Positions 6,025 to 8,028 of a stretch of DNA of 10,481 nucleotides are shown here, in pieces. Made by a program: the position numbers and the translations under genes. The notes below the pieces were generated by a model. That model worked only from the letters and a program-made list of their open reading frames with translations. It searched no databases and was not told where the DNA came from. The DNA lies in the NCBI GenBank assembly GCA_023818905.1, contig JAMWDE010000003.1, positions 1 to 10,481 of the forward strand. Direction: 5' to 3'. The DNA is from Candidatus Omnitrophota bacterium (GTDB lineage Bacteria > Omnitrophota > Gorgyraeia > Gygaellales > Profunditerraquicolaceae). The number at the start of each line of letters is the position of its first letter. Within the stretch, counting starts at the first letter, position 1.

Positions 6025-6052
6025 TTGACAAATTGGATAGGTATATTATAAT
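6025..6052 (+). promoter_or_regulatory. Perfect-consensus sigma-70 promoter for the amidase gene
   Basis: TTGACA (6025-6030) and TATAAT (6047-6052), both exact consensus, with a 16-bp spacer. Transcription should start near 6059. It lies 12 bp past the comEC stop and creates a leader of about 130 nt before the amidase start at 6190. Such a strong promoter ahead of an intrinsic terminator suggests that output is set by termination rather than by initiation. Confidence 0.8.
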
Positions 6053-6109
6053 AGACTTGGAAATTAAAAATTAGGATCTATAAGGGGCTGAGGGAGAGTA
6101 GATTTTCTT

Positions 6110-6143
6110 TGGCGGTTTTTAATGGAGGGTGGTCGGGCCGCCA
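6110..6143 (+). promoter_or_regulatory. Alternative (antiterminator-like) hairpin
   Basis: TGGCGG (6110-6115) pairs perfectly with CCGCCA (6138-6143), with an additional U6116-G6137 wobble, enclosing a loop of about 20 nt that includes GGAGGGTGGTCGG. Because 6138-6143 is also the 5' arm of the terminator, the two structures exclude each other. Confidence 0.55.
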
Positions 6144-6171
6144 TCTGATATAATATCATATGGCGGTTTTT
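6138..6171 (+). terminator. Intrinsic terminator in the amidase leader
   Basis: CCGCCAT (6138-6144) pairs perfectly with ATGGCGG (6160-6166). After one C/T mismatch the stem continues TGAT...ATCA (6146-6149 with 6155-6158), and TTTTT follows at 6167-6171. The GC-rich base and T-run are classic on the + strand; on the - strand no T-run follows the stem. It sits only about 18 nt before the amidase start codon. Confidence 0.75.
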
Positions 6172-6176
6172 AATTT

Positions 6177-6180
6177 GGAG
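6177..6180 (+). promoter_or_regulatory. Ribosome-binding site that decides the amidase start
   Basis: GGAG at 6177-6180, 9 nt before the ATG at 6190. It lies downstream of the in-frame ATG at 6160, so it can serve only the 6190 start. The 6160 ATG lies inside the terminator stem and has no ribosome-binding site. Confidence 0.75.
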
Positions 6181-6189
6181 ATTCGGATA

Positions 6190-6930
6190 ATGCTAAATAG
6201 AAAGATTTACTTATTTTTGTTTTATCTAATTCTATTTATAAATGGCTGCGCCACTGTTCCACGGCAACCGGTAATAGCGCCTGGACAAGGAATATACCAT
6301 ACTGTAGGGAGTGGACAGACTATCTACAGGATTGCCAAAACTTACAATGTGGACATCCAAGAACTCATGCGGATAAACAGGATTAACGATCCTACCCACA
6401 TAGAGGTAGGGCAGAAGTTATTTATCCCGGGCGCAAAAGTTCCTTTGCCGGTAGAAGTTTACAGACCAATTCCGCAAGAATTAGTTGAGAAACTTGTAGG
6501 TCCTAAGCACCTTTCTTCTCAGAGGTGTTATATTACCATACATCATAGCGCAACGCTTGAGGGTAATGCCGAGTGTTTTGACCGCTATCACCGTCACCGC
6601 AAGATGGGTGGGCTTTTTTATCATTTTGTGATTGGCAACGGCAGGGGTTCTGGAGATGGTGAGATTGAAGTGGGTTGGCGCTGGAAAAGACAGGAGGAGG
6701 TAAATAGGCCCTATGATATCCAGATTTGCTTGGTAGGGAATTTTAACAAAGAATTAGTCAGTAATGCACAGTTTGACGCCTTGGTTAAATTAATCAGGGT
6801 TCTATGCAGACAGTACAACATACCCTTGGAGAATATACGAAGACACCAGGACGTTGCAGATAAATTCACCGAATGTCCAGGCAGCAACTTCCCTTTTTAT
6901 CAACTTCTGACAGAACTAAAGCAAAACTGA
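6190..6930 (+). CDS. LysM-containing N-acetylmuramoyl-L-alanine amidase, lipoprotein
   Basis: A 246-residue predicted lipoprotein that should cut the bond between MurNAc and the stem peptide in peptidoglycan. The first 20 residues are a type II signal peptide ending LFINGC, with C20 the lipidation site, so the enzyme is membrane-tethered in the periplasm. A LysM peptidoglycan-binding domain spans about 36-80 (YHTVGSGQTIYRIAKTYNV...VGQKLFIPG). The catalytic Amidase_2/PGRP domain spans about 113-238; likely zinc ligands are H118 (in ITIHHSAT), H219 (RRHQD) and C229 (TECPG), as in T7 lysozyme. An in-frame ATG at 6160 would add ten residues before the signal peptide but lies in the terminator, so 6190 is preferred. 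Expression is probably set by the attenuator-like leader. It may act in wall recycling or cell separation. Confidence 0.9.
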   Translation: MLNRKIYLFLFYLILFINGCATVPRQPVIAPGQGIYHTVGSGQTIYRIAKTYNVDIQELMRINRINDPTHIEVGQKLFIPGAKVPLPVEVYRPIPQELVEKLVGPKHLSSQRCYITIHHSATLEGNAECFDRYHRHRKMGGLFYHFVIGNGRGSGDGEIEVGWRWKRQEEVNRPYDIQICLVGNFNKELVSNAQFDALVKLIRVLCRQYNIPLENIRRHQDVADKFTECPGSNFPFYQLLTELKQN

Positions 6931-7048: not shown

Positions 7049-7077
7049 TTGACAAACTATATTGGCTGTGTTATTTT
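7049..7077 (+). promoter_or_regulatory. Sigma-70-type promoter for bamD-like-lptE-holA
   Basis: TTGACA (7049-7054), a 17-bp spacer and TATTTT (7072-7077). The -10 box ends 9 nt before the ATG at 7087, so transcription should begin at or within a few bases of the start codon. The mRNA is predicted to be leaderless or to have only a stub that includes AAGG (7082-7085). Confidence 0.65.
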
Positions 7078-7086
7078 AGATAAGGT

Positions 7087-8028
7087 ATGAGGAAAATAGT
7101 TCTAGTTTTTGTTTTAATCTTTTTCAATTTATCTATCATCTGTGCTTATCCTTATTGGATTTGGACGCCTAAAACCGGTAGATGGGTGAACCCCAAAACT
7201 GCAGTTAGAGCTACTTCCCAGGAGCAATTTGAATTCGCCAAAGGTCTCTATGAAGAGAAACGCTATCCAGAGGCAAGGCGCGAATTTAAAAAACTCATCA
7301 AGGTCTATCCCAAGACATTTGAAGCTGCAGAGGCCCAGTATTATTTAGGGCTTATAGATGAACAAGAAGGGAACCTCTATGAGGCATATCTGGCTTATCA
7401 GAAGGTTATAGACAAATACCCCTTTTCTGAAAGGATACAGGAGATTATTGAGAGGGAGTTTAAGATTGCCGAGGCATTTATGTCAGGAAAAAAGCGCAAG
7501 TATATGGGTATGAGTTTACCTGTGGAGAATCCTGCCATTGAGATATTCACCAAGGTGATTGAGAATTCCACCTATGGGCCTTTGGCTCCAAAGGCCCAGT
7601 ATAAATTGGGTCTACTTTTTAAGAGTTTAGGTAGATATTACGAAGCAGAAGAGGCATTCAGTAAAGTGATTTCTAACTATCCAAATAGTGAATGGGTAAC
7701 ACCAGCAAAATTTCAAATTGCCTCCTGTTACGCTGCTATCTCTAAAGGAACTGACTATGACCAAGGTTCAACCAAAGAGGCAAAAGAGAAATTTGAGGAG
7801 TTTATTATTGAGTATCCCGATGCGGTTTTGTCCAATGAGGCAGAAAAAAGTCTAAGCCAACTAAGAGAAAAAGAAGCAAAGAGTAATTTCAATATCGCTC
7901 GGTTTTATGAAAAACAGAAGGATTATGCAGCAGCAAAAATTTATTATGAAGATATAATTGAGAATTACCCTCAAAGCATCTGGGCTGCTAAGGCTATGGA
8001 GAGACTGAGCATAATGGAGAAAAGATGA
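7087..8028 (+). CDS. BamD-like TPR outer-membrane assembly factor (YfiO family)
   Basis: A 313-residue periplasmic protein made almost wholly of tetratricopeptide-type helical repeats. Clear units are at about 46-78 (QFEFAKGLYEEKRYPEARREFKKL...YP), 81-112, 169-199 (AQYKLGLLFKSLGRYYEAEEAFSKVISNYP) and 267-297 (FNIARFYEKQKDYAAAKIYYEDIIENYP). BamD is a subunit of the BAM complex that inserts beta-barrel proteins into the outer membrane. A signal peptide covers residues 1-20, followed by a short aromatic WIWTPKTGRWVNP segment (24-36). Unlike E. coli BamD there is no good lipobox: C19 is preceded by S-I-I, so cleavage by signal peptidase I after A20 is more likely. The gene is longer than E. coli bamD (about 245 residues). 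It overlaps lptE by 4 nt, which supports an outer-membrane role. A general TPR protein such as CpoB is the main alternative. Confidence 0.8.
   Translation: MRKIVLVFVLIFFNLSIICAYPYWIWTPKTGRWVNPKTAVRATSQEQFEFAKGLYEEKRYPEARREFKKLIKVYPKTFEAAEAQYYLGLIDEQEGNLYEAYLAYQKVIDKYPFSERIQEIIEREFKIAEAFMSGKKRKYMGMSLPVENPAIEIFTKVIENSTYGPLAPKAQYKLGLLFKSLGRYYEAEEAFSKVISNYPNSEWVTPAKFQIASCYAAISKGTDYDQGSTKEAKEKFEEFIIEYPDAVLSNEAEKSLSQLREKEAKSNFNIARFYEKQKDYAAAKIYYEDIIENYPQSIWAAKAMERLSIMEKR

Follow-up and report, generated by a model that had tools for sequence, protein, structure and literature searches.

The leader in front of a cell-wall amidase gene of an Omnitrophota bacterium is probably a riboswitch that turns transcription ON, of the nhaA-I superfamily (Li+-I / Na+-II type) and with an intrinsic terminator as its expression platform, that is, a working ion switch. 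It is homologous to this known superfamily, though divergent, and its target is new. This reading is built on homology, on covariation within the RNA family, on a terminator that shares a strand with the aptamer and on the kinds of genes found downstream in relatives. The window, by which we mean the whole stretch of 10,481 nucleotides that was analyzed (GenBank assembly GCA_023818905.1, contig JAMWDE010000003.1), carries the following features in and behind the leader, placed with the Rfam model RF03057 and with R1, a lineage-specific covariance model described below:

6025..6052, + strand: promoter, TTGACA-16-TATAAT (12/12 consensus)
6084..6115, + strand: aptamer P1, with GGG 6084-6086, stem 6087-6097/6103-6113 and GG 6114-6115 (RF03057 and R1 placement)
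6116..6126, + strand: P1-P2 linker of 11-12 nt, longer than usual in the family (compared with relatives)
6127..6146, + strand: aptamer P2 with loop CGGGCC, containing UGGUCGGGCCGCCA; proposed antiterminator (cmscan and R1 alignments)
6138..6171, + strand: intrinsic terminator, CCGCCAT...ATGGCGG plus TTTTT, using the P2 3' strand (fold energy, pairing probability, relatives)
6177..6180, + strand: ribosome-binding site GGAG (read from the sequence)
6190..6930, + strand: LysM + Amidase_2 lipoprotein-like N-acetylmuramoyl-L-alanine amidase (Pfam PF01476, 2.4e-15; PF01510, 2.9e-17)

Identity of the Leader Element

The Rfam family nhaA-I (RF03057, curated cut-off 37 bits) comprises riboswitches termed Li+-I, or Na+-II if a terminator comes after the aptamer. 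At the gathering threshold Rfam gave no match for the window leader, while in E-value mode the best match was RF03057 at 6084-6146 (22.3 bits, E 0.0077-0.018), in whose alignment the 14-nt P2 stretch UGGUCGGGCCGCCA is identical to the nhaA-I consensus. Since 22.3 bits does not reach the cut-off of 37, the element is named a divergent homologue and not a filed member. Homology was also found with R1, which was built from 63 aptamers of the same phylum (alignment A1) with the window left out: on the window's whole genome the element is the only match listed (32.3 bits, E 1.4e-7, R1 E-values being rough), and the second-best match within the window scores only 5.4 bits. By both models 6084-6146 is homologous to nhaA-I, though divergent, and this is a known class rather than the undescribed one put forward in the preliminary description. 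The trpB motif (16.8 of 59 bits) and the miRNA and snoRNA matches of the E-value mode were discarded as chance.

Promoter, Leader Fold and Terminator

The strings on which the preliminary description was based, namely the promoter, TGGCGG at 6110-6115 and 6161-6166, CCGCCA at 6138-6143, TTTTT at 6167-6171 and the ATG at 6190, are all present at those positions, and its proposal of an attenuator or riboswitch agrees with our view of a transcription-attenuation leader, probably a riboswitch, before a gene with LysM and Amidase_2 domains (Pfam). The promoter boxes (-35 TTGACA, 6025-6030; -10 TATAAT, 6047-6052; 16-nt spacer) form the sole 12/12 match in the window, where promoter-like sites with at least 9/12 matches number 28 vs 29.9 expected. 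Among 64 relatives, 50 also have a -10-like hexamer 5' of the aptamer, compared with 46% of shuffles. A second promoter-like site (7049-7077, TTGACA-17-TATTTT, 10/12) stands directly before an ORF at 7087 that is read as BamD-like.

The leader from 6059 to 6175 folds with -34.6 kcal/mol (z -3.80), which none of 200 shuffles equals; with the 3' arm of the terminator removed (6059-6160) the fold is ordinary (z -1.57; 12/200 shuffles as good). The terminator hairpin spans 6138-6166, its stem by itself accounts for -15.3 kcal/mol, and its predicted probability in the growing transcript is 0.88 at 6164 and 0.98-0.99 from 6166 on. A crude terminator scan of the window gave 5 sites vs 7.6 expected, the leader terminator not being among them. 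As in the window, a terminator overlaps the P2 3' strand in 54/64 relatives, and when the downstream 60 nt were shuffled, a stem of at least five pairs on that strand together with a T-run arose in 4%.

The Family Across Omnitrophota

RF03057 exceeds its cut-off in 96 of the 384 Omnitrophota genomes surveyed, as well as in 20 of a set of 58 (the window's own genome counted), and R1 is positive at E <=0.01, in some cases weakly, in 130/384. Among 14 named control genomes one lay over the RF03057 cut-off in each of the two surveys; seven were weakly positive in the 58-genome survey and Caulobacter alone in the 384-genome survey. These findings may partly overlap the sequences of PMC9646797.

From 77 distinct cores, 69 were kept after removal of the window (L053) and of seven chance ones (L054, L056, L058, L059, L060 and L114, the last twice). 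The 64 relatives are these 69 minus five with a P1 score <=11 (L049, L051, L052, L074 and L129:3240); A1 has 63 rows after removal of L047, which has Ns beside the core, and A3 consists of 27 rows, the lower-scoring members plus the window. Cores were chosen by GG[N]CGGGCCGCC, so this stretch is bound to be invariant in A1. Of the cells of this alignment 98.9% are paired, and double-change cells number 91 vs 29.1 in shuffles; the pairs showing a double change number 8 vs 6.2 expected, a value reached by 17/500 shuffles. Nearly all of these pairs fall in P1, since P2 hardly varies.

Two loci carry tandem copies of the riboswitch, L032:1501-1683 (G002) and L086:1358-1551 (G345), whose starts are ~130-145 nt apart. 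At L129:3239-3252 (G174) a P2 core and terminator lie before mscS and P1 is missing; this is probably a decayed second riboswitch within the same gene run.

A downstream ORF could be called for 67/69 elements, not always the adjacent one; the 69 include the G174 remnant, count both members of tandem pairs, for instance L032 and L086, and contain two elements near or at contig ends. With identities taken from Pfam on one representative per cluster, the largest cluster (21) is represented by a trehalose-6-phosphate synthase (GT20) that is preceded by a membrane N-terminus; next come MscS (14), Band-7/HflK (12), P-II (4), Na/Ca exchanger (3), peptidoglycan-binding proteins (3) and 10 single cases. 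Such salt, osmotic and envelope targets lead us to favor Na+ over Li+ as the likely ligand. The window's own genome, 65% complete, yielded neither MscS nor a 224-aa operon protein, an absence that shows little. It is tentatively proposed that Omnitrophota run a salt-responsive RNA regulon of Na+-II-like switches, with trehalose synthase, MscS, HflK, P-II, Na/Ca exchange and peptidoglycan genes as its members, and that the divergent, possibly ion-shifted aptamer described here puts a single wall amidase of this species directly under the control of intracellular sodium; for this wider proposal as a whole the likelihood is rather low.

Association of the Element With Amidase Genes

An in-frame ATG at 6160, inside the terminator stem, would lengthen the amidase ORF by 10 codons; ATG 6190 is the likelier start because of the ribosome-binding site and the lipoprotein-like signal. 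Among the 18 genomes whose amidase scores >200 bits, five have an element <=10 kb upstream on the same strand, compared with 0.053 expected, although the P value is only a guide, since the 10-kb limit was set after seeing the data and some of the arrangements may share ancestry; in this count the weak R1 hits of G016 and G030 were scored as zero, and G230 entered with three RF03057 hits. The distance from element to amidase is ~45 nt in the window, ~240 nt in G262 and 0.76 kb in G092, where the amidase is the third gene, and in G174 and G186 the amidase follows at ~6 kb in same-strand gene runs. In the scanned DNA of six more orthologues (G020, L142, L145, L146, L147 and L149) there is no convincing R1 match (best 9.2 bits), and upstream of the close amidase orthologues L003-L009 R1 gave no match at E 1. 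An upstream element is thus missing from 19/24 amidase orthologues and present in 5/24, so that the link is a recurring rather than a general one. As to the refuting conditions named in the preliminary description, the absence before those 19 orthologues speaks against conservation of the leader together with this gene; the RNA family itself covaries in relatives, P1 above all.

The G262 riboswitch (L106:2474-2529, - strand) has an A at GG[N]C, precedes an amidase 71% identical to that of the window and runs into an apparent truncated copy of the gene for the 224-aa operon protein. The amidase of L142 (MHKF01000015.1), 73% identical to the window's, is on a contig titled Kerfeldbacteria that is possibly a mis-binned Omnitrophota contig.

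Proposed Mechanism and Alternatives

In the favored reading, transcription would begin near 6059 and the aptamer helices P1 and P2 would form at 6084-6146. High cellular Na+ (less likely Li+) would stabilize P1-P2, and the ion-bound form would withhold CCGCCAU (6138-6144) from the terminator, allowing readthrough into the amidase gene; at low ion levels, CCGCCAU would pair with AUGGCGG (6160-6166) and transcription would stop in the U-run. The antiterminator would be aptamer P2 itself, whose strands are 6127-6133 and 6140-6146 and whose 3' strand falls in the 5' arm of the terminator. The start site, the ligand, the direction of switching and the continued working of this divergent copy are put forward here as predictions, direction and ligand on the model of PMC9646797 and PMC9337991. 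This arrangement departs from the preliminary description in two respects: the sensor had been sought at 6060-6109 and is placed here at 6084-6146, and the terminator had been set against a pairing of 6110-6115 with 6138-6143, while 6110-6115 is placed here at the 3' end of P1, the predicted probability of that pairing is 0.00, and it is P2 (6127-6146) with which the terminator competes.

The copy in the window has diverged from its family in several respects. The flanks and stem of P1 are present, yet the closing pair is G6087-C6113 where relatives have U-A (22/27 in A3, and 63/63 in A1, a figure biased by the omission of low-scoring P1 rows). Scored independently of P2, a P1 of equal quality with GG flanks and this spacing turns up in 0.06% of shuffles and in 0.175% of segments taken from the window itself; these P values are post hoc, the finder having been widened (linker <=13 nt, flanks corrected) after a first version (linker <=11 nt, GGN flanks) gave the window a best score of 5.5, which 13.7% of shuffles equaled. 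A longer P1 (UCUAU 6077 / AUGGA 6126), the choice of the unconstrained fold, was rejected because it leaves no linker and both RF03057 and R1 choose the other register. The P1 of the window is rich in G-U, with a predicted probability of 0.19-0.69 along the transcript. The linker measures 4-10 nt in 63/64 relatives and 12 in the remaining one, and is longer in some lower-scoring members, e.g. L162. Canonical P2 is predicted at <=0.07 in growing transcripts and, with ViennaRNA, at 0.03 compared with a median of 0.87 in the 64 relatives, 3 of which fall below 0.1; the low value arises because a register-shifted hairpin is more stable, and this shifted register likewise occludes CCGCC (0.99). The A-to-G change in P2 is seen in other members as well. 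At the variable base of GG[N]C the window has U, and the 69 relatives have T (63), C (5) or A (1); we infer that this base is the published specificity position 54.

Considerably less probable than a working switch, and still a serious rival given the divergence of the window and the G174 remnant, is a decayed riboswitch, in which terminator and P2 were inherited, the aptamer no longer binds an ion and the leader acts as a fixed partial terminator or simple attenuator. Such decay does happen in the family, as the P1-less remnant before mscS indicates, and the R1 score of the window is the lowest of 27 matches compared (the other 26 reach 36.7-52.7 bits), with only one whole-model match below it in a further survey (G008, 19.1 bits); the altered closing pair and the weak canonical P2 point the same way. 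However, the closing pair is a compensated double change, P1 and its GG flanks are kept at plausible spacing better than by chance, and promoter and terminator are intact. It is unlikely that the homologous aptamer has instead shifted its specificity to another ligand while retaining the same P2/terminator switch. The closing pair unlike that of nearly all relatives and the wall enzyme as direct target would fit such a shift, as would the one-base change that altered the ion response of one family member (PMC9646797), but the 14-nt P2 stretch matches the consensus exactly, and G262 and G092, with canonical P1, also have an amidase close downstream.

The TGGCGG strings sit inside a 14-nt exact direct repeat, TGGCGGTTTTTAAT (6110-6123 and 6161-6174), both copies of which are family-typical sequence (P1 end plus linker, and terminator arm); that they are identical throughout may be due to local copying. 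Although this repeat makes both pairings equivalent on paper, an unrelated attenuator with 6110-6115/6138-6143 as its antiterminator, as first suggested, is highly improbable, since that pairing stays at 0.00 at every transcript length able to form it and homology explains the strings without it.

Comparison With Known Riboswitches

The ydaO element is a c-di-AMP riboswitch; genes for osmotic and, as in the window, wall functions are among those linked to this class. Unlike ydaO, the leader has no such Rfam match up to E 10, and the earlier exclusion of this class is borne out. With Na+-I (DUF1646 motif), for which ON switching by competition between P2 and a terminator has been shown (PMC9337991), the window shares a similar overall architecture and the type of switching proposed here; unlike Na+-I, it shows no listed match to the DUF1646 model up to E 10, overlapping matches of the same clan being reduced to the best one.

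As in Li+-I, a representative of which activates expression with Li+ (White et al., 2022; PMC9646797), the window has UGGUCGGGCCGCCA in P2, including the U at GG[N]C, and a P1 between GGG and GG. By contrast, the window lies below the Rfam cut-off, and Li+-I members are mostly linked to nhaA, the authors of that paper speculating that most control ribosome access. No crystal structure of a Li+ riboswitch was found in the literature searched; in the same literature, with subscription papers and supplements outside its scope, neither an Omnitrophota/Omnitrophica riboswitch nor a link between a Na+ riboswitch and an amidase was found.

The closest likeness is to Na+-II. One terminator-type nhaA-I variant, that of D. 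propionicus, gives readthrough with Na+ by experiment, and at its specificity position a C (C54) replaces the usual U (PMC9646797). In this paper, terminator-type variants are reported only in Deltaproteobacteria, and mention is made of tandem elements in environmental DNA beside cation-transport and osmotic genes, of a triple nhaD array with terminators and of trehalose-6-phosphate synthase as an occasional neighbor. Like Na+-II, the window has the order P1-linker-P2, the conserved P2 loop and a competing intrinsic terminator that uses the P2 3' strand, and it is predicted to be an ON switch. It differs from the Na+-II elements described there in its Omnitrophota host, its wall-amidase target and its altered P1 closing pair. 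What had been an undescribed attenuator thereby becomes a testable ion switch, and terminator-type nhaA-I is extended from Deltaproteobacteria to a large uncultured phylum, with osmotic and envelope targets. On this view the hydrolysis of peptidoglycan may be adjusted to the sodium level inside the cell; if true, wall remodelling would be tied to salt sensing, in a phylum where relatives carry the switch before salt-stress and cell-envelope genes.
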